Assembly (NCBI GenBank): GCA_016866755.1
Contig: VGLK01000006.1
Coordinates: 1 to 49,982, forward strand
Length of the DNA stretch: 49,982 nt
Direction of reading: 5' to 3'
Source: Candidatus Saccharimonadota bacterium
GTDB taxonomy: Bacteria; Patescibacteriota; Saccharimonadia; Saccharimonadales; Saccharimonadaceae
Shown piece after piece: positions 23,276-37,509 of this stretch. Position 1 is the stretch's first letter, and the number at the start of each line of letters is the position of its first letter. The notes under the pieces are model-generated. The model had not been told where the DNA came from. It saw only the letters and a program-made list of their open reading frames with translations, and did no database searches. A program made the translations under genes and the position numbers.

Positions 23276-26092
23276 TTATTTTTCGCCACGATCGGCTGGA
23301 CCGGTTGGTTCAGGACCCTGCGTATTTGTAGTGCTGTAGTCGGTAGTTGGGTCTTTGCCATCATTAGCGGCGCGAGCTATGTCACGAATTTGATCGGACG
23401 GTTTGTAATTGTAATGCTTGGTTAATCCGTTAAACATTTCGTTTAGGCTGTCTCGACGACTGTCGATGTTGGCCATAACGTCAGGGTTGGACTTGGCGGC
23501 ATAGAGCGCATCCACCCACGACTGCATGTTCCCCTTAAATTCTTTCGCCATTTCTTTGTCGGTTCGCTCGAGGTATTGTTCAATATCGCGAACTTTATTG
23601 GGATTACCAAAAGCTGTCGAGACCTCTTTAAACCATGAGGCTTTCATCTTACCGATATTCTGCGGTGTGGTGTCGGCCAATGATTTAGACGCTAGTGCTA
23701 AGTTACGTAGTTCCCAATCACCCTTGCTCTCGCCTGGTTTAATGGCAAGATTCGGCACGTTAACCAAGTCCCAACCACCGGCTTCAACTAAACCTGATGC
23801 ATTGCGAGCAATAACCGACCCTACGATTTCCTGGTTTAATCCCTCTAAACCACGAGCCTTTCGAATAGCCAGTACGTCTTTTTCGCGAGCTTTTTGCTCT
23901 AAGGCGGCCTCTATTTTTTGCATACCATACATTTTCATGGCCGTATCTGGATCGCCGGTTAAATCTTTTACAATCATGTTGGTGTAGTTTTTAAGCGTAC
24001 CACCGTATTTTGATGGCTCTAAAATCGCCTGCTCTTCCATCAAATCTAGCACATTGTCGCGTGCCTCTTTGTTAATTTTATTAAGTGCCTCGGCAGCAAC
24101 CGCTTCGGCTCGCAGGCGGCCATTCGGATCAACACCGGCGGCGGTATTAAGCAGCGATTCCTTTAGTTCTGAATCTGCTGTAAACGCCGTGTTAATGGTT
24201 TCTGCCCGCATATTTCGAGCCGATTCAGCCTGTTGTTTTACGGCCGAGTGCAAGATAGCGTTATGCGTCATATCGCGTGCAATTTCGCCAACTTCACCGT
24301 CGTGATTTGTTTTACCTGAACGTAGCTCTTCATCAAGCGCCGCCACTCGGTCGTTGGCAGTCGCCATGGCATCTTGGGCGCGCGTAGCTTTTACGTGCGC
24401 AAGGTTATGGTGAGAACCTACCTGAGCAGTTTGCTCGGCAATATAGGTGCCAACATTTCCCTCAGAAGTTTTAGCAATATCTTCAACATTTTTGTTCACA
24501 TCTGCCATGCGAAGACCGGCCTCGCTCTGATTAAACAGTGCATCGGCTGCTTTATTATCGGCATCTTTAAGCCCTTGGCGAGTGCGTTGATCGCTATCCC
24601 AGTATGTAGCATATGAGCGCAGAGGGTTACGCCAGCGTGAAAGTTTGCCCTTATCATTCATCTCGTGATTCAGGCGCATATTTTTGGCACGGCCAGATTC
24701 GTAGCGATCGCGCGACCAGTTTTTAGCCTTGTCGATAAGCCCTTTATTAGGATCGTTAACCATACCAGCAATCCGAGAAAGCAGCGATCCACCAAGCTTA
24801 AGCGTAAGTGGTACAAGCGCGAGTGGAATCACCTGTACTGCCATACCAAGAATAATGGTTGTAATATCGGTGGCATTTTGAATAATAAGTACACCGGCCA
24901 ACTGAGCACCGCCAAAAATAAGCGAAAATGCCGGGAATAGTAGAAGCATGGTGGTAAAAAGGCGGCGCCAACGGTTAAATAAATCTTCGGTATTTGGAAG
25001 TAAATAGGCTACGAAAGCTAGAGGTGATATGACTACTAAAATTGTTACCAGCGCCTGCCTGGCGGTAAGTACCACAAGCGTAATAAGCACCGCAAAAAGC
25101 ACGTTAAGAAGCACCGGTACCAGTAGCATAGCCGAGGCAACACCGGCCGCACCAATAGTAATACCAGCTCCGGCTACGGCACCGGCCAGTACCCCACCGG
25201 CTAAAATAGCTTCAGCAAGCGACTTCCACGAAATCATTTCCCAGCTGTTGGTTGATGTTCCAAGCAGACTATTGCGGATATCAATAAACATATCTTGCAG
25301 AGAAAAACCAAGAATATTAGAGATATCTATAAGAATAGCGCAAAGCCAGTACGAAACATTCACCAGTACCGCGGCAATAATAAGGCGCGGCAACAGCTTT
25401 TTAATACCGTAGTTACTAATACCTAGGGAAGTAAGCTGTGAAGCGATAATGATAAGAAACGCCAAGACAAAGCAGATATTAGCAAATCCACGCATTACGT
25501 CCCAGGCGCGGCGCATAGCGGTGTTTTCGGTGGTTTCAAGGTAGCGGACTTCTAAAAAGGCCTGTACGCGTTCAAAAATCCAATCTGTACCAGCCGCTAG
25601 ACCATTGGTAATCGGACAAATTAGCCAGCCAAGCCCGTCTATACGGCACGAGGAGCCGCCCTCTTCATCTACCGGCGCATTAGCTTCTTCAGATGTAGCG
25701 GTGTCGATAGTAACGGTTTGCGTATCGCCATCAACCACCACGCGTCCGGCACGTTCTACGTACGGTACGTAGCGAGCCGAGCCAGCGGTTGCTGGGTCTT
25801 GTCCAGGCTCGAACACTAACGCATATTGAGTACCAAAAGCTCCACCAGATGAGATATATACCTGTGCCCCTTCGGGAAATGCTCCGCGATCATCGGAGTT
25901 TATCTCGGTTGGGCCGCGGTAAGTACGACCATCGTATTGAAGTTCACCTCCCGACCACGAGGCATCGGCGGCAAAAGATGTTTGTGGAAACGCTATAGCT
26001 AAAAATGCGGCTAGAAGCGCCGCAATCAGCAGAAGTCCTCGAAACCTCGAGAAGAACATCCGCCACGGATGTGTAACTACGTATTCCACCAT
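23276..26092 (-). CDS. VirB6/TrbL-like T4SS channel protein, copy 1
   Basis: A 938-residue protein with a signal-like N-terminus (residues ~15-42, PQTSFAA), a short extracytoplasmic domain, then a polytopic membrane core at about residues 150-460. The core includes CRIDGLGWLICPIT, KKLLPRLIIAAVLVNVSYW and several alanine/leucine-rich helices. The C-terminal half is soluble and charged, with many helical repeats. The layout matches VirB6/TrbL-type channel proteins of Gram-positive-like T4SS. It shares motifs and order with the 27151-30183 protein, so they are paralogues. The GC-rich cassette gene lies between them on the other strand. Confidence 0.82.
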   Translation of the reverse strand: MVEYVVTHPWRMFFSRFRGLLLIAALLAAFLAIAFPQTSFAADASWSGGELQYDGRTYRGPTEINSDDRGAFPEGAQVYISSGGAFGTQYALVFEPGQDPATAGSARYVPYVERAGRVVVDGDTQTVTIDTATSEEANAPVDEEGGSSCRIDGLGWLICPITNGLAAGTDWIFERVQAFLEVRYLETTENTAMRRAWDVMRGFANICFVLAFLIIIASQLTSLGISNYGIKKLLPRLIIAAVLVNVSYWLCAILIDISNILGFSLQDMFIDIRNSLLGTSTNSWEMISWKSLAEAILAGGVLAGAVAGAGITIGAAGVASAMLLVPVLLNVLFAVLITLVVLTARQALVTILVVISPLAFVAYLLPNTEDLFNRWRRLFTTMLLLFPAFSLIFGGAQLAGVLIIQNATDITTIILGMAVQVIPLALVPLTLKLGGSLLSRIAGMVNDPNKGLIDKAKNWSRDRYESGRAKNMRLNHEMNDKGKLSRWRNPLRSYATYWDSDQRTRQGLKDADNKAADALFNQSEAGLRMADVNKNVEDIAKTSEGNVGTYIAEQTAQVGSHHNLAHVKATRAQDAMATANDRVAALDEELRSGKTNHDGEVGEIARDMTHNAILHSAVKQQAESARNMRAETINTAFTADSELKESLLNTAAGVDPNGRLRAEAVAAEALNKINKEARDNVLDLMEEQAILEPSKYGGTLKNYTNMIVKDLTGDPDTAMKMYGMQKIEAALEQKAREKDVLAIRKARGLEGLNQEIVGSVIARNASGLVEAGGWDLVNVPNLAIKPGESKGDWELRNLALASKSLADTTPQNIGKMKASWFKEVSTAFGNPNKVRDIEQYLERTDKEMAKEFKGNMQSWVDALYAAKSNPDVMANIDSRRDSLNEMFNGLTKHYNYKPSDQIRDIARAANDGKDPTTDYSTTNTQGPEPTGPADRGEK

Positions 26093-26157
26093 TACCGATA
26101 AATGATATCATGTTTATAGCTTAAAGTCAATACCACAACCATTATCACACAGCTGTA

Positions 26158-26186
26158 TTTACAAAAAGTAAATTTTATGATAAAAT
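26158..26186 (+). promoter_or_regulatory. Sigma70-like promoter of GC-rich cassette 1
   Basis: TTTACA (26158-26163) and TAAAAT (26181-26186) with an exact 17-base spacer. The expected start of transcription near 26193 gives a leader of about 75 bases, unlike the leaderless starts of many neighbours. Confidence 0.65.
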
Positions 26187-26212
26187 AATGCTTGAATCAT
26201 TGAAAGTCCTAC

Positions 26213-26231
26213 AGACACTACAGTAGTGTCT
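26213..26231 (+). promoter_or_regulatory. Leader hairpin upstream of cassette 1 gene
   Basis: AGACACTA and TAGTGTCT form a perfect eight-base-pair stem with a three-base loop. It lies between the promoter and the AGGAGGTG ribosome-binding site (26253-26260). It has no T run, so it is a leader structure and not an obvious terminator. Confidence 0.6.
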
Positions 26232-26268
26232 CTTCCAGTGATCTACCTTGAGAGGAGGTGGCCTTAAA

Positions 26269-27048
26269 GTGGCTACCGCAATGGAAACGTCTTCCGATCA
26301 CCGCGCCGCACGTGGGCGCACGTTTTGGGGTGTGATTTACGATCACGGGGCGCTGGTATTCAGCGCCTTCTCGGTGTGCATCTACGCCATTCTGGCGCTC
26401 TCGCAGAGCTCGGTATGGTGGTTCGTGCTCATTCCCGTACTGATGGTGGTGTGGGCTGGTCTCGTGTGGGCTGCATCGACCATTCAGATTCCCGGCATGG
26501 AGAAGCCCAGTTTTCGTCCGCAGGATTTCATCAAGATTTCTGTGCGGGCGGTGGTGGTGGCAATCATTACTGCCCTGTGGATGCTGTTTGGCTACTACTT
26601 CGGTACGGCTGACAACTACTGGGCGCTGGTTGCCGGCCACTACCTCTACGGCTCCAAGGGGCTCACCTATTCGCTTGGTCACATCCCCTGGTGGGGACTG
26701 GTGATCATCGGCGTACTGGTGGCCTCTCTGCTGGCCTGGAAGACCCGTCCCAAGTTCATGCAGGCCTCCGGTGCTCAGAAGATCGTCATTGTGATTTTCG
26801 GTGTGCTGGCACTGGTGGGCGTGATGTTCGCCTATACCTTGGTGAGCGGGGTGTTCGCTTTCTTCAACGGGTTTGTGGTGATGTTGCTGCTCGGTCTCCT
26901 GACCTGGTGCCTCATCTACCTCTGCCGGTGGAAGAGCGACCTGTTCGCGCGTGGCGACCTGCTGGCGTTTGCCGGTGTGGCAATCCTGACGGGGTTGCCG
27001 ATCGGCTTTCTGCTCATGCAGATGCTGTACGCCGGTTCCGGTACGTAA
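26269..27048 (+). CDS. Unrecognised seven-helix membrane protein, GC-rich cassette 1
   Basis: A 259-residue protein I do not recognise. After a polar start it has about seven hydrophobic segments: ~26-45, 50-70, 92-112, 140-156, 171-190, 198-218 and 230-252. Loops carry aromatic and basic residues (PSFRPQDF, GHYLYGSKGL). I use a GTG start at 26269 nine bases after AGGAGGTG; an ATG at 26281 is 12 bases farther. The codons strongly favour G or C in third position, unlike all the neighbours, and the gene points against both flanking virB6-like genes. It has its own promoter, leader and 3' hairpin. Recent transfer is likely (inference). Function is unknown; a role with the T4SS is possible from position only. 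Confidence 0.7.
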   Translation: MATAMETSSDHRAARGRTFWGVIYDHGALVFSAFSVCIYAILALSQSSVWWFVLIPVLMVVWAGLVWAASTIQIPGMEKPSFRPQDFIKISVRAVVVAIITALWMLFGYYFGTADNYWALVAGHYLYGSKGLTYSLGHIPWWGLVIIGVLVASLLAWKTRPKFMQASGAQKIVIVIFGVLALVGVMFAYTLVSGVFAFFNGFVVMLLLGLLTWCLIYLCRWKSDLFARGDLLAFAGVAILTGLPIGFLLMQMLYAGSGT

Positions 27049-27066
27049 CCCACTCGCGTGGAAAGG

Positions 27067-27102
27067 CTGGAGTGGTGCGATGATCGCATTGCGCCACTCC
27101 AG
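27067..27102 (+). terminator. Strong hairpin after cassette 1
   Basis: CTGGAGTGG...CGATG pairs with CATTGCGCCACTCCAG over about 16 base pairs with G-T pairs and a four-base loop. No T run follows directly (CTGCCACGG), so it may act as a Rho-independent terminator of weak type, an mRNA 3' stabiliser, or part of the cassette boundary. Confidence 0.55.
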
Positions 27103-27150
27103 CTGCCACGGTCATCTCTCTCAAGGGTTTTTACCCTAAATTTATTTTAA

Positions 27151-30100
27151 TTATCTAGGCCGATAGTTTCGGGGCGGTTCTTGGGGCGAATTGGTTGATT
27201 GAGAGGCGTTAGCTTCAAAACGGTTTCGTAAATGTTCGCGAGCAGCGCGCTCCCCTTCTACCTTGTGGTAGATATTTTTTTGCTCGGTAGTATTAGAATT
27301 GCGTGTCGCATCGGCAATTCGCGCCAAGTCACCATCACTTAAGCCAGCTGGTTTTACGGTGTTTATAATATTGGTAATAGTTTGCGGGCGAGAAAGATCT
27401 TCCCCGACAGTGTAGCGCTGCGGTGTTGGTACGGCACCGGCGGCATATCCTTGGCGGGGCGCCTCGTTGTAGAGTGCTGCCCGTGCCTGTGTGGCTATCT
27501 CTGGTTGTACGGCCGTTCTTGTGTCGGGGTTATATGATCTAGCGTCGCTAGAGGACGGCACAATACGTGGCGCTTCAGGACGCGGTGAGCTTACACCGTG
27601 CGGAATAACTAATTCAGGGGCGGCCGTTGAAGGAGGCGAAGATGTAGTTACGGATACGGGAGCTGAACGAGGCGTTGAACTACCTACTGATGATGCAGAC
27701 GACGAGGTGCTGGCACTAGAGGCTCCAACTGGCGCAGTACTACCACCTCCTGCCGCGGCAGTTGTCGAGGAGCTTGCTCCACCGCCACTCGCTACAATGT
27801 TACGCAGAATAGCTTCTCGTGGACTATTTAAAATTTTCTGACTAAGTTCTGGCGTCTCTAGAATAAACTCTGCGGTCGATGCATTTATGCGTCCATGCTG
27901 CGCTTCGGCTGCCATGGCAATGGTGCTTAGTCCAACAAGTTTCTCTGGTTCTAGGCCGCCGGCACTCATATCGGTGTTAGCGATAACTTGTCGATCGGTG
28001 CCATTAACTCTGACAGATGTAGGGGCGTTTGAAGTAACTCCATTCGCGTAGTCGGACAGCGCTTTGTCCTTTGGTCGCACGCTTCCAACATTTGAACGAA
28101 TACCCATTGTTACAATTCTTTCAGTCTCCGAGCCGCTTCCAGCAACTGTACTTGCAACTACTTCGTTAAGCACCTCTACGCCTCTTACGCCAAAGCTGTT
28201 CGAAAGCATACTCACGTGCGCTTGAATATCAATCGCGTCTGGCACCTCTTGCGCAAGAGCGTCACGTAAGCCCTGTTCAGCTTGACTTAGGCTACCAGCA
28301 TACTCCATTGTTAGCTGCGTTGAGCGATCCTTAATATCAGAATCTTCTTGCCCAGCGGCAATACCGGCAGCTCGCCGAGTAAGCGCACTCTGACTGGCCA
28401 ACCATTCTTGTCGCCTAGTCGGTACTTTATCTGGCTCTAACCCAGCAGCCCGCGCGGCGGCGGCCTCAGCTACCACGTTTTTAGCCGTCTGTACTTCTTC
28501 GGCCCAACTTTCGGTGCCTTGGTTTTTAGCGGCTTGACGCATTACCTCTCGGGTTTGCTTGTTTCTTGCTCCCCGCTGGTAAAGACTGCGGCCTGCTGCT
28601 GCCCCTGGGTTCATCCAGCTACGTTTAGAATTTGGTTTATTTGCCCACATTTGTGCTCTAGTACCCCATTCATCGGCTCGGCGCTTTTTAGCCCGATCGA
28701 TAAGACCGCGGTTTTTATTGTTTGCCATGCCCGCCAACTTACCAACCACACCACCACCAATTGCCACGATCTTAGGAATAAAGACCAATGGCGCAACTAG
28801 TACGGCGAGCCCTAACCCGACCATTATTAATCCAAGCACTTCTTGACCGGTACTGGCTTCATCTGTTAGTGGTAATGGGGCGCTTGAAATAATAATAAAC
28901 CCAGCAATCTGCGAGAGCCCAAATATAAGTGAAAATATTGGAAACAGCATAAGACAAGCTACAAATGCTTTGCGCCAAAAAGTAAAGTATTTTTCGGTGT
29001 TTGGGAGTAAAAAGGCACAAAAAGCAATTGGAGCAACAGCGATAAGAATGATTACTAGTGCATGGCGAGCAGCGATAATAAGAAATGCTACTAATACAGC
29101 AAGTAATGCGGCCAGCATAAGCGGCGTGATTGCAGAGAAAGCCGCAACAATCACGCCCGGTGCAACTGCTAATAGAGAGTATCCTACACCAAGGATAGTT
29201 AGAGAGCTAGCACCGAACAATACCGCAGTAACGACAGTAGTCCACATTTCGGCAGAATCGCTTTGAGAAGTATTTATTAAATCGGGTCGATTAGCTTCAA
29301 GAAAGCCCTGAAGTCCCCAGCCAACAATGTTAGATACATCAACCAATATCGCGCATATCCAGTACGATAAGTTTACTAAAATAGCGCTAGCAATAATTCG
29401 CGGCAACATTTTTTTAATAGTGTAATTAGTTATGCCAATACTTGTTAAGTGCGACATAATAACCAGCAATATCGCAATAACAAATAGAATATTTGCAATG
29501 TTTCGGGCGGATTGCCAAATCACATAGAGTGAGTATGTTGGAGAGTCTTGGTCGCTCGTGTCGGTATTAAGCGGGGTTACCTCTAGCATTGAGCCGATAA
29601 CGGCGTAGACACCATCGAGTGCACCTGCTATAAATAGCGAAACAGGACAGATAATCCAGCCAATGCCATCAATCTGGCATTTGGTCTCTTCAGCGGCAGT
29701 TTCATCACCGTCAGCTGCGCCGTTACCGTTAGCCGCCTCTTCTTCGGTTAATACCGAAAATGATTGATCGCCAGGACCTTCATTATCACAACCATTGCCG
29801 CCAATTGCATTGCCGGAGGTACGGTTCAGTACATCCATGCGCACCGAGTCGCCGTTGCGTGAAAAGCTGACGTTGTAGGTACATATTTGATCAGCATTAC
29901 CGTATCCGAGGCGCACGTTGGCTACATCTAAGTTTCCACCATTGGCACTAATATCCACCACTTCATCAGTACATTGCTCGCCTAACGCTGCGGCACCCGG
30001 CTGCGAAGATATGTTACAGTTTTGATAACGAAACTCTAAACCATTATTGGCAGTTTCAACTACCTGATAATTTTTCGGCTGACCAACAGCCATGGAAATA

Positions 30101-30183
30101 GTAGAATAAAAAACTGACACGCCAAGCGACATGCCAAAAACCATGATGCTAAATAAAGATGCTTGTGTTAGCGCTTTTTTCAT
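27151..30183 (-). CDS. VirB6/TrbL-like T4SS channel protein, copy 2
   Basis: A 1010-residue paralogue of the 23276-26092 protein. It has an N-terminal hydrophobic signal segment, an extracytoplasmic domain with several cysteines, then a polytopic core with CQIDGIGWIICPVS and KKMLPRIIASAILVNLSYW matching copy 1. The C-terminal ~450 residues are soluble and end in Ser/Ala/Pro-rich low-complexity sequence and a basic tail. I place the start at 30183 (MKKALTQAS) because it gives a clean signal segment and follows GTGGGA; the frame continues upstream through a terminator. Two different VirB6-like proteins may form separate or mixed channels. Confidence 0.82.
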   Translation of the reverse strand: MKKALTQASLFSIMVFGMSLGVSVFYSTISMAVGQPKNYQVVETANNGLEFRYQNCNISSQPGAAALGEQCTDEVVDISANGGNLDVANVRLGYGNADQICTYNVSFSRNGDSVRMDVLNRTSGNAIGGNGCDNEGPGDQSFSVLTEEEAANGNGAADGDETAAEETKCQIDGIGWIICPVSLFIAGALDGVYAVIGSMLEVTPLNTDTSDQDSPTYSLYVIWQSARNIANILFVIAILLVIMSHLTSIGITNYTIKKMLPRIIASAILVNLSYWICAILVDVSNIVGWGLQGFLEANRPDLINTSQSDSAEMWTTVVTAVLFGASSLTILGVGYSLLAVAPGVIVAAFSAITPLMLAALLAVLVAFLIIAARHALVIILIAVAPIAFCAFLLPNTEKYFTFWRKAFVACLMLFPIFSLIFGLSQIAGFIIISSAPLPLTDEASTGQEVLGLIMVGLGLAVLVAPLVFIPKIVAIGGGVVGKLAGMANNKNRGLIDRAKKRRADEWGTRAQMWANKPNSKRSWMNPGAAAGRSLYQRGARNKQTREVMRQAAKNQGTESWAEEVQTAKNVVAEAAAARAAGLEPDKVPTRRQEWLASQSALTRRAAGIAAGQEDSDIKDRSTQLTMEYAGSLSQAEQGLRDALAQEVPDAIDIQAHVSMLSNSFGVRGVEVLNEVVASTVAGSGSETERIVTMGIRSNVGSVRPKDKALSDYANGVTSNAPTSVRVNGTDRQVIANTDMSAGGLEPEKLVGLSTIAMAAEAQHGRINASTAEFILETPELSQKILNSPREAILRNIVASGGGASSSTTAAAGGGSTAPVGASSASTSSSASSVGSSTPRSAPVSVTTSSPPSTAAPELVIPHGVSSPRPEAPRIVPSSSDARSYNPDTRTAVQPEIATQARAALYNEAPRQGYAAGAVPTPQRYTVGEDLSRPQTITNIINTVKPAGLSDGDLARIADATRNSNTTEQKNIYHKVEGERAAREHLRNRFEANASQSTNSPQEPPRNYRPR

Positions 30184-30234
30184 ATATCCCACTCTGCTGT
30201 CCTCATTATGCCTAAGCATAAGAGAAAAAGCCAG

Positions 30235-30272
30235 AGTAAAAACACACCCCTTTTCAGGAGTGTGTTTTTTGA
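30235..30272 (-). terminator. Terminator of the lipoprotein gene
   Basis: AAACACAC and GTGTGTTT with an interior CCCCTTTTCAGGA form a stem-loop; reading leftward it ends in a T run (GTGTGTTTTTA). It lies between the lipoprotein stop (30296) and the start of the VirB6-like gene, separating the two transcripts. Confidence 0.8.
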
Positions 30273-30295
30273 TCAAATGCGTGTGGTTATTGCTA

Positions 30296-34856: not shown

Positions 34857-34946
34857 GGAGAGGTGCCCGAGTGGTTGAAGGGAACGGTCTTGAAAACCGT
34901 CGTGCCGGCAACGGTACCGAGGGTTCGAATCCCTCTCTCTCCGCCA
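34857..34946 (+). tRNA. tRNA-Ser (anticodon UGA)
   Basis: The acceptor stem GGAGAGG pairs with TCTCTCC (one G-U), the anticodon loop is CTTGAAA so the anticodon is TGA, the variable arm is long as expected for a class II tRNA, and the T arm GAGGG-TTCGAAT-CCCTC is intact. The CCA is encoded. Confidence 0.93.
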
Positions 34947-34984
34947 TAGAAAAACACGCTTGCAATCGCAGCGTGTTTTTCTAT
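34947..34984. terminator. Bidirectional terminator between tRNA-Ser(UGA) and pilin 6
   Basis: ATAGAAAAACACGC and GCGTGTTTTTCTAT form a 14-base-pair stem with a nine- or ten-base loop; T runs occur in the stem on both strands. It lies between the tRNA and the leftward pilin gene stop. Confidence 0.8.
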
Positions 34985-35003
34985 TTCAAGAATGAGTAAG
35001 GCG

Positions 35004-35423
35004 TTAAACGTTGGTGCCACCGGTTGAGTTACCGGTAACAGCCTCTACAACAAAACGCACAATGGCGTAGGCAAAAATTGCCACTACAAGCCCAATGATT
35101 GCATAAAGAATTGTGTTTTTTGCGGCGGTAACCTGATCACTTTTGCCGCCCGACACCACGTAGCGAAGACCACCAATAATAAGCATGATTACGCTAATAA
35201 TACCGATAATAAACAGTAAAATATTGATAATCTGCTGAATAACGCCGCCATCACCGCTAATTTCTGTTGGTACACCAGTTCCTCGTGCGCTTTCAACTCC
35301 ACCTGGCGCACCCGCTTCGTAGTTAAAAGCCTGTGCGGCTTCTGGCACAAGAGCGCTACTTATAAGTGCGAGACTGGCAATTGTGGCTATAACTGCTACT
35401 GTACTTATAATAAACTGTTTCAT
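35004..35423 (-). CDS. VirB2/TrbC-like pilin family protein 6
   Basis: A 139-residue paralogue of pilin 5 on the opposite strand. It has a signal segment (VIATIASLALISSAL, ending AAQA), a short polar stretch (EISGDGGVIQQ) and the two-helix core with the loop YVVSGGKSDQVTAAKNT. It stands alone between two tRNA-Ser genes, with its own -10 (TATACT, 35459-35454 on the minus strand) and AAAGG before the ATG. It may be an alternative pilin subunit (inference). Confidence 0.78.
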   Translation of the reverse strand: MKQFIISTVAVIATIASLALISSALVPEAAQAFNYEAGAPGGVESARGTGVPTEISGDGGVIQQIINILLFIIGIISVIMLIIGGLRYVVSGGKSDQVTAAKNTILYAIIGLVVAIFAYAIVRFVVEAVTGNSTGGTNV

Positions 35424-35519
35424 CTAAAACCTTTCTTTGCGTATTTCTCTATTAGTATAGCAAAAAGACCCTTTAAGTATATACGAATCAGCATTAAATT
35501 ATGTTATACTAACAGAGCT

Positions 35520-35612
35520 GGAGGAGTACCCAAGTGGCTGAAGGGGACGGTTTGCTAAATCGTTAGTCTGGGGAGACCTGGAGCGGGAGTTCGAATCTCC
35601 CCTCCTCCGCCA
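35520..35612 (+). tRNA. tRNA-Ser (anticodon GCU)
   Basis: Acceptor GGAGGAG pairs with CTCCTCC, the anticodon loop is TTGCTAA giving anticodon GCT, the variable arm is long, and the T arm reads GGGAG-TTCGAAT-CTCCC. The CCA is encoded. A TTATACT box ends about ten bases before the 5' end. Confidence 0.93.
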
Positions 35613-35629
35613 AATACAGCAGCCAACTA

Positions 35630-35656
35630 AATACGCATTAATATGGCGTATTTTTT
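35630..35656 (+). terminator. Terminator after tRNA-Ser(GCU)
   Basis: AATACGC (35630-35636) pairs with GCGTATT (35646-35652), followed by a T run to 35656. Confidence 0.7.
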
Positions 35657-35658
35657 AT

Positions 35659-35685
35659 TTGGCAAAATGACGCTCGTGGTATACT
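35659..35685 (+). promoter_or_regulatory. Leaderless promoter of the two-helix protein gene
   Basis: TTGGCA (35659-35664) and extended -10 TGGTATACT (TATACT at 35680-35685) are 15 bases apart. The ATG follows eight bases after the -10. Confidence 0.5.
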
Positions 35686-35693
35686 AGCTATAT

Positions 35694-36308
35694 ATGAATC
35701 CAGATCGACAAAGTAATTACTGGGCGCCGGATGAATCGGCCGAGCCTGAGCTGGCGGTACCGGCAGCAACACTCGGTGTGGACGGTGAAAAAATCGAAAC
35801 AGCATCAAACACTGACTCTAATAGCCAACCTGCCTTGACTAACGACGACACCCCGCTTACATGGGAAGCCCCTGAGTTTATCTTTCGTCCACGCTCGGCA
35901 ATGTGGTACGTATGGTTCACAATTGCCTTGGTAGTAATGTTGTTTGTAGCGATTGTCCTTATGCGCTCAATCACCTTTTCTATCTTGCTGGTTGTTATGG
36001 CGGCAGCAGTTATTATTTACGCCAAGCGCCCACCGGCTATGATTACCTACTCGGTTAGTCTAAAAGAAGGTATTTTTGTTGGCAATAAACTGTATCCGTT
36101 TGAAAATTTTAGAAGTTTTGGTGTGCAGAATGACATGGGGTATTATGCGCTTGTATTTATTCCGACTCAGCGATTTCACCCAAGTCTTACCATGTATTTT
36201 CCCGATGCAATTGGCGAAGAGTTAGTTGATACTGTAGGTGTGCGTCTACCGCTTCAAGATATACACCCCGACGTAATTGATCGAATCATTAGAAAACTAC
36301 ACCTTTAA
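35694..36308 (+). CDS. Two-helix membrane protein of unknown function
   Basis: A 204-residue protein with ~65 polar residues, then two membrane helices (MWYVWFTIALVVMLFVAIVL and ITFSILLVVMAAAVIIYAK) and a C-terminal soluble domain with beta-like strands (ISYSVSLKEGIFV-like, YPFENFRSFGV, YYALVFIPT). The order, two helices then a small beta domain, recalls bacterial PH-like membrane proteins, but I cannot assign the family. An extended -10 (TG-G-TATACT, 35680-35685) ends eight bases before the ATG and there is no ribosome-binding site, so a leaderless mRNA is expected. Confidence 0.65.
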   Translation: MNPDRQSNYWAPDESAEPELAVPAATLGVDGEKIETASNTDSNSQPALTNDDTPLTWEAPEFIFRPRSAMWYVWFTIALVVMLFVAIVLMRSITFSILLVVMAAAVIIYAKRPPAMITYSVSLKEGIFVGNKLYPFENFRSFGVQNDMGYYALVFIPTQRFHPSLTMYFPDAIGEELVDTVGVRLPLQDIHPDVIDRIIRKLHL

Positions 36309-36428
36309 ACTTGCTCTTAAGAGGTGAATCGTGGTATTATAAAATACGTTCCTCGAGCATTTCTCGAGCGAAAGCACCTTCTAGTTATGTGCGGTCATCT
36401 AGTAATTTATTGCTTTATGACTGCGTTT

Positions 36429-36505
36429 GCACCCGTAGCTCAGCTGGATAGAGCGTCGGCTTGCGGAGCCGAAGGCCATAGGTTCGAATCCTGTCGGGTG
36501 TACCA
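36429..36505 (+). tRNA. tRNA-Arg (anticodon GCG)
   Basis: Acceptor GCACCCG pairs with CGGGTGT (one G-U), the anticodon stem TCGGC/GCCGA holds the loop TTGCGGA giving anticodon GCG, and the T arm has GGTTCGAATCC. The CCA is encoded. Length 77. Confidence 0.92.
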
Positions 36506-36512
36506 ATAAAAC

Positions 36513-36541
36513 AGACTCACTTTTTAAGTGGGTCTATTTTA
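36513..36541 (+). terminator. Terminator after tRNA-Arg
   Basis: AGACTCACTT pairs with AAGTGGGTCT (10 pairs including one G-U, three-base loop), followed by ATTTTAT. Confidence 0.65.
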
Positions 36542-36607
36542 TATAGAGAGGCTAAGTAATCTGTTGAGTACGGTGCGCTTAGTCGCAAAAAAGTATTACA
36601 AACAATA

Positions 36608-36639
36608 AAAAATAAGCACCGCGTTATGCAGTGCTTATT
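36608..36639 (-). terminator. Terminator of the 76-residue protein gene
   Basis: AATAAGCAC (36611-36619) pairs with GTGCTTATT (36631-36639). Reading leftward, T-rich sequence follows. It is 16 bases past the stop at 36655. Confidence 0.75.
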
Positions 36640-36654
36640 TTAAATGCTTAGGTG

Positions 36655-36885
36655 CTATTGCATTCGTTCTACAGCATCAGATGCACGATTAGCCGTTCCC
36701 TCGGCTTCCCCTGCTTGATCAAGTGCCATGATAGAGAGTGCTAGTGCAATTACCGATGCGATCAGCGCAAGTGTAGATAGTAATTTTGCCACCTTAGCAT
36801 CAGAGTGTGCCTCGTGAACATCTTTGCGAAGTTCGTTGTTGCTTGTGTGGTGATAGTTATTGTCGTTACTGTATGAGTCTGCCAT
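36655..36885 (-). CDS. Small single-helix membrane protein, 76 residues
   Basis: A 76-residue protein with a polar, His/Asn-rich N-terminus (~28 residues), one membrane helix (LLSTLALIASVIALALSIM) and a short acidic tail. No family is recognised. It has an unusually good ribosome-binding site (AAGGAGGTC with a suitable gap to the ATG) and its own terminator, so it is a real, well-translated single-gene unit. Confidence 0.7.
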   Translation of the reverse strand: MADSYSNDNNYHHTSNNELRKDVHEAHSDAKVAKLLSTLALIASVIALALSIMALDQAGEAEGTANRASDAVERMQ

Positions 36886-36988
36886 TGTTGACCTCCTTAA
36901 TTGCTATCGTAACTAAAACTATAGAGTATTTAAGTTAAAGGTATTGTAATTATTTTAACATTTAGGCACATTGCTTTTATGTAAACTG

Positions 36989-37357
36989 CTAAACCTGAGG
37001 TTCAATATATTCTTGCGCATCATCAGGTAAATAGTCGGGATATGACTGGACTGCATTGCCAGCAAACATAACGGCCACCACAAAGAAAATAATTGCCAGC
37101 GCAATAAGAATAAGCGAAATTAAGGTGGTAATTCCACCCATAATAATGCCGGCTATAGCAAGGCCACGGTCATTTTTATTGCGGCGAAGGCCAATCCAGC
37201 CAAAAATAACCGCTGGCAAGCCGGTAATTATAAGTGGTCCAGTAAGCGAGATTGCTCCAAGAATAAGCGAGGCAATGGCGAAGCCACTACTCTGCGGGGT
37301 GTTAGTGGTAGTTTGCGGAGTTTGTGGTGCTTCAGGAGTTGGTGCGGGTGTTGTCAT
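36989..37357 (-). CDS. DUF4190-like small membrane protein
   Basis: The 122-residue protein has a Thr/Pro/Gln-rich N-terminus (24 residues), then two helices with the pattern GFAIASLILGAISL, LPAVIFGWIGL, a basic RRNKNDRGLAIAG loop and IIMGGITTLISLILIALAIIFF. This GLAIAG-centred arrangement is that of DUF4190 membrane proteins, whose function is unknown. A minus-strand TATACT (37369-37364) ends six bases before the ATG, so the mRNA should be leaderless. Confidence 0.75.
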   Translation of the reverse strand: MTTPAPTPEAPQTPQTTTNTPQSSGFAIASLILGAISLTGPLIITGLPAVIFGWIGLRRNKNDRGLAIAGIIMGGITTLISLILIALAIIFFVVAVMFAGNAVQSYPDYLPDDAQEYIEPQV

Positions 37358-37421
37358 GGCTATAGTATACCACTGCTAGAGTTGAGCGTAAAAACTTGCT
37401 ATACTTAAAAACGAACAATTT

Positions 37422-37509
37422 GGAGAGGTGCAGGAGTGGTTGAACTGGCTTGTCTCGAAAACAAGTGTGCCGCAAGGTACCGAGGGTTCGAATCCCTCTC
37501 TCTCCGCCA
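37422..37509 (+). tRNA. tRNA-Ser (anticodon CGA)
   Basis: Acceptor GGAGAGG pairs with TCTCTCC, the anticodon loop CTCGAAA gives anticodon CGA, and a long variable arm and standard T arm follow. CCA is encoded. Its 3' third is identical to tRNA-Ser(UGA). TATACT at 37400-37405 is a likely -10. Confidence 0.93.

Follow-up and report, generated by a model that had tools for sequence, protein, structure and literature searches.

A probable moron-like, GC-rich single-gene cassette encoding a seven-helix protein between two virB6-like genes of a Saccharimonadota bacterium

Morons are single-gene cassettes that carry their own promoter and terminator, deviate in composition and lie between the genes of phage operons. 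The gene studied here resembles them in consisting of one open reading frame with a putative promoter, a ribosome-binding site, a 3' hairpin and a deviating GC content, and in running counter to the flanking operon. It differs from them in its location, a bacterial type IV secretion system (T4SS) locus with no recognised prophage, and in having no match to a phage family. Since its neighbours are PrgI, a VirB4-like ATPase, pilins and virB6-like genes, and no PHROG is matched, we call the gene moron-like and do not file it as a moron. A second likeness is with genomic ORFans, or lineage-specific genes, gained by horizontal gene transfer. The GC-rich genes among which this gene falls also have no homologues, deviate in codon usage, are scattered and include mobile genes, but they differ in bearing GC-rich hairpins without a U-tract. 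Finally, the VirB6-like T4SS proteins of Patescibacteria (PMC12102498) are, like the predicted product of this gene, polytopic membrane proteins encoded in the same locus. However, the gene lies on the opposite strand, is about one quarter of their size, shows no sequence similarity to them and is missing from relatives that have a T4SS. With a little more belief than doubt, we take it to be a moron-like single-gene cassette from a high-GC pool, independently transcribed and encoding a cytoplasmic-membrane protein, and its place in the T4SS locus to be probably incidental.

The gene and its surroundings

The window, i.e. the whole stretch of 49,982 nucleotides analysed, is the entire contig C6 of genome G000 (848 kb, 7 contigs, 99.8% complete). 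Its T4SS locus (about 14–34 kb) encodes PrgI (PF12666), a VirB4-like ATPase (P-loop TraG), several T4SS pilins (PF18895), an M23 peptidase, a phage-tail-lysozyme protein and two paralogous VirB6-like proteins, the only two that a virB6 protein search of G000 returned. This gene set agrees with the published T4SS of Patescibacteria, which is MPF-FATA-like (PMC12102498). The features around the GC-rich gene are the following.

23276..26092, - strand: virB6-like gene A (938 aa, 10 TM), adjoining the PrgI (PF12666) and VirB4-like ATPase genes
26102..26130, - strand: divergent promoter-like site, TTGACT-17-TATCAT (10/12 matches)
26158..26186, + strand: putative sigma-70-like promoter, TTTACA-17-TAAAAT with extended -10 TG, called from 10/12 consensus matches
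26213..26231, + strand: leader stem-loop AGACACTACAGTAGTGTCT, perfect 8-bp stem
26253..26260, + strand: Shine-Dalgarno sequence AGGAGGTG, 8 nt upstream of the GTG at 26269
26269..27048, + strand: the GC-rich open reading frame, GTG start, 259 aa, about seven TM helices, matching no known family
27065..27104, + strand: GC-rich 3' hairpin without U-tract, 18 pairs (15 Watson-Crick, 3 G-U)
27124..27137, + strand: small second hairpin AGGGTTTTTACCCT, with AT-rich sequence behind it
27151..30276, - strand: virB6-like gene B, paralogue of A, on a long branch

The order of the two virB6-like genes (23276-30276) is unlike that of most relatives, and the PrgI-adjacent copy is by sequence of the type that is PrgI-distal in relatives. 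Together with the long branch of copy B, this order suggests a local rearrangement.

The initial annotation had described a gene opposed to both virB6-like neighbours and with a third-position preference unlike theirs, and both observations hold. The gene is on the + strand between two genes on the - strand (23276-26092 and 27151-30276), and its GC3 is 0.757 when counted from an upstream TTG and 0.769 from the GTG start, whereas the remaining 45 genes of the window range over 0.31-0.55. Its composition stands apart within the window, yet not from every gene genome-wide, as it ranks 7th of the 824 genes of G000 (mean GC3 0.412, sd 0.075). The GC content by codon position (0.56/0.44/0.77) fits a real GC-rich coding frame. 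Its codon choice resembles that of other GC-rich orphans and of an actinobacterial-type island and not that of conserved genes, for example for TTC (0.67 in this gene, 0.66 in those orphans and 0.68 in the island, versus 0.14 in conserved genes) and for AAG (1.0, 0.82 and 0.81, versus 0.31). The GC-rich block extends from about the Shine-Dalgarno site to about position 27118, spanning the stop codon and the 3' hairpin. The compositional boundary is sharp, which could indicate an assembly chimera or contamination. This we hold to be barely credible, because the gene is single-copy in a 99.8% complete genome of 7 contigs, is flanked by the paired virB6 genes of a locus conserved in relatives, has a GC-rich body joined to an AT-rich promoter, and has dozens of similar counterparts in the independent single-contig genome G023. 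The protein has the seven hydrophobic helices previously described (Kyte-Doolittle), and an AF2 model made from the single sequence without alignment is all-helical, of low confidence (pLDDT 54).

Of the signals that the initial annotation assigned to the gene, the Shine-Dalgarno sequence and a very strong 3' hairpin are confirmed. The hairpin starts 17 nt past the stop codon and folds with a z of -4.9, equalled by none of 200 shuffles. It has no T-run directly behind it and is probably a terminator or a protector of the mRNA 3' end. The gene's own 17-base-spaced promoter stands as a 10/12 consensus match, but two sites of its grade occur in the region versus 1.3 expected in shuffles, so that by itself it is within chance. 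Likewise, the stem in the leader is indeed perfect, but the whole leader folds no better than its shuffles (z -1.2), and among the GC-rich genes described below 5' stems are not characteristic (2/50). The divergent site at 26102..26130 is possibly a promoter of the virB6-like gene 23276-26092.

Homologues and the corresponding site in relatives

The protein had been called unrecognised, and it matched nothing in any of the libraries searched. Searches of 60 representatives, 295 genomes of the family and 393 genomes of the taxonomic class gave no homologue, the sole match below 1e-3 being an 18-bit one with an internal stop in G230. Pfam, NCBIfam, PHROGs and PADLOC gave no match above the curated cut-off or at a significant E-value. 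There was also no match in the PDB or in plasmids and phages (tblastn), and Foldseek of the pLDDT 54 model returned nothing with E <= 0.001. GTDB contigs and IMG/VR, scanned by exact peptide patterns only, gave no match; Actinobacteria were covered by such patterns in the GTDB contigs. That neither a donor nor a homologue was found in the sets searched counts against the cassette reading. Weak matches in L097, L100 and others (E 6e-4 to 0.2 per genome over 295 genomes) have stops or mismatched contexts and were dismissed as chance. A membrane protein adjoining an ECF sigma factor in L098, picked as the top scorer out of 295 genomes, reached a Smith-Waterman score of 86 versus a shuffle maximum of 69. 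Such sigma-factor partners share with our protein a weak local similarity (PWW motif, helices), but a sigma factor adjoins them and none adjoins this gene. Kinship was rejected after a 14-member profile, run over two whole genomes, left the protein outside the top 25.

Gene maps of 20 loci from relatives, all of other genera, differ in what lies next to the virB6 genes. In one relative, G018, a 278-aa ORFan with 6 TM helices (L035:3086-3922) has the place and orientation of our gene, with a normal GC3 of 0.52; no homologue with a convincing score was found for it elsewhere in the family. Other relatives encode soluble proteins unrelated to ours between the virB6 genes, or have only 6-90 nt there, and their gene order differs. 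A PrgI gene, sought in G018 for the gene order, was not found (genome 85% complete).

The G018 ORFan hints at a positional role, which counts against a cassette. The main rival to the cassette reading makes our gene a resident of the T4SS locus, a membrane gene that evolves very fast and is the positional orthologue of the G018 ORFan, with a T4SS-accessory function such as channel modulation or host-contact specificity. Besides place and orientation, the two genes agree in approximate length, helix count and promoter (TTTACA-17-TATAAT in G018), and virB6-A of the window groups with the G018 copy, its nearest (98/94). Moreover, a soluble GC-rich orphan pair beside virB6 (L040:11338-11856 and L038:9818-10366) is syntenic in two genera despite only 32% identity. 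We nevertheless consider a resident gene unlikely. No homology between our protein and the G018 ORFan was detectable (Smith-Waterman score 44, equalled by 28% of pattern-preserving shuffles; BLASTP E 0.68), GC3 is 0.52 in one and 0.77 in the other, and the remaining relatives have unrelated proteins or a short gap at this site. The syntenic orphan pair, with GC3 of 0.81 and 0.71, is confined to G013 and G023 among the 295 family genomes. That it keeps this composition at 32% identity means that a high GC3 need not imply recent import.

A genome-wide class of GC-rich genes

All genes of G000 and of G023 (single contig, 1.16 Mb) were surveyed, and genes without a BLASTP match at 1e-4 between the two genomes were counted as lineage-specific. 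Conserved genes have a narrow GC3, of 0.396 (sd 0.043) in G000 and 0.430 (sd 0.047) in G023. Genes more than 3 sd above these values are nearly all lineage-specific (36/40 in G000 and 54/57 in G023; odds ratios 27 and 25). Our gene belongs to a class (GC3 >= 0.58, >= 120 aa) with one member per 33 kb in G000 and one per 23 kb in G023, about 75 in all, by thresholds picked after the data were seen and in lists that contain some doubtful ORFs. The idea of a unique T4SS cassette was abandoned on these numbers, the GC3 outliers being a genome-wide class. GC-rich orphans turn up beside virB6 genes in several genera, and the T4SS segments of relatives hold nine class genes in 155 kb, or one per 17 kb (Poisson P 0.05 and 0.23). 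A T4SS hotspot was rejected as not significant, and enrichment of the class at T4SS loci is weak or absent.

A T4SS-linked role, proposed from the place of the gene between two channel genes, did not gain from this survey. Since the class is scattered through the genomes, the place of our gene is probably incidental. Position in a T4SS locus is by itself no evidence of a T4SS role, which is possible but unsupported. The location, and the recurrence of GC-rich orphans near virB6 in several genera, would also fit a cargo, effector or immunity gene associated with the T4SS, as the initial annotation implied. This is very unlikely in our view, as density does not significantly exceed the background, the gene is not conserved across T4SS-bearing relatives, and secreted cargo proteins are not typically polytopic membrane proteins.

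GC-rich 3' hairpins without a U-tract follow 18 of the 65 class genes with free 3' space versus 10 of 573 other genes (Fisher P 8e-13), with a scoring that somewhat favours the GC-rich class. Composition would not be expected to yield perfect stems of 14-16 bp, however. Promoter matches are also more frequent in the class (28% versus 8-11%; P 5e-4). Hairpins of this kind are described as occurring fairly commonly in GC-rich mycobacterial genomes and have been reported in actinophage, but their termination efficiency is disputed (PMC5335608).

The strong 3' hairpins across the class, AT-rich promoters of local look, and the diverged syntenic orthologues that retain a high GC3 could also mean that our gene is native, its GC-rich codons being selected for translation or for mRNA stability along with the 5' and 3' hairpins. 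We find this distinctly unlikely. The tight GC3 of conserved genes (0.396, sd 0.043 in G000), with few outliers, argues that expression level alone does not drive GC3; moreover, the class contains a transposase, and 5' stems are not enriched in it.

In G023, class members include a DDE transposase and a ThiF operon. The latter (G023:C1 148807-152388; L122:8807-12388) comprises four adjacent genes of GC3 0.81-0.91, including one for a ThiF-family protein and one for a small protein that may be ubiquitin-like, and it may be an imported operon for ubiquitin-like conjugation or for defence. In G000, the class includes a seven-gene island at C1 59325-67538 (L061/L062; GC3 0.55-0.86), which encodes a ParA-like ATPase, a 3-TM pilin-like protein, a 7-TM VirB6-like protein, two ATPase-like proteins and a lysozyme/M23-like protein. 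An ATPase of the island matches Streptomyces, Nocardia and Gordonia plasmids at about 30%; a genome-contig scan queried with it gave no match. From the sequences, the island resembles an actinobacterial-type conjugation/T4SS operon, and it is probably an imported second T4SS of G000.

Origin and role of the gene

We return to the cassette reading. A foreign origin is suggested by the codon usage, the absence of homologues in relatives and membership of a class with many mobile or imported genes. The initial annotation had proposed a foreign gene fitted with local transcription signals. For the promoter side, which is AT-rich and local in look, this remains apt; for the 3' side it does not, as the GC-rich block passes the stop codon through the hairpin, a signal that probably arrived together with the gene. 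Neither target-site duplications nor a recombinase, which would mark the boundaries of a cassette, were identified, and this counts against the reading.

We can propose the following scenario. The gene would have been acquired from a high-GC pool, with actinobacterial hosts or their phages as the likeliest donors. It would carry its own promoter and ribosome-binding site, and the reading frame would encode a seven-helix protein of the cytoplasmic membrane. The hairpin would end or protect a transcript made independently of the T4SS operon and against its direction. If both promoters work, the T4SS operon would be split here into two transcription units. The cassette would be one of the genome-wide class, its position in the locus being incidental or tolerated and not functional. 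We infer that the product stands alone in the cytoplasmic membrane and has an accessory role; mobile-element exclusion or defence, or envelope modification, would be our guess. A broader proposal is that GC-rich single-gene cassettes, with their U-less GC hairpins, form a turnover pool drawn from high-GC hosts or shared phages and placed under local promoters, and that those adjacent to virB6, including this gene, serve as T4SS host-adaptation factors. We regard it as rather doubtful.

As an ORFan, the gene alone says little, and the surrounding class is more useful. In reduced episymbiont genomes, high GC3 combined with a U-less GC hairpin is a mark of genes that were probably imported, and it offers a way to list what these episymbiont parasites take from their hosts and phages.

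Other observations concern the rest of G000. Its most extreme gene (C1 20536-21018; L060:536-1018) has a GC3 of 0.957 and encodes a 160-aa protein with one TM helix and no Pfam match. Two adjacent genes at C2 94028-97107 (GC3 0.84-0.91) have signal-peptide-like starts, and one of them has a repeated Asp/Gly/Asn-rich unit; they likely encode surface proteins. In the window, beside the T4SS pilin genes, three tRNA-Ser genes (TGA, GCT, CGA) and one tRNA-Arg gene lie within 2.7 kb (34857-37509), interleaved with small genes.
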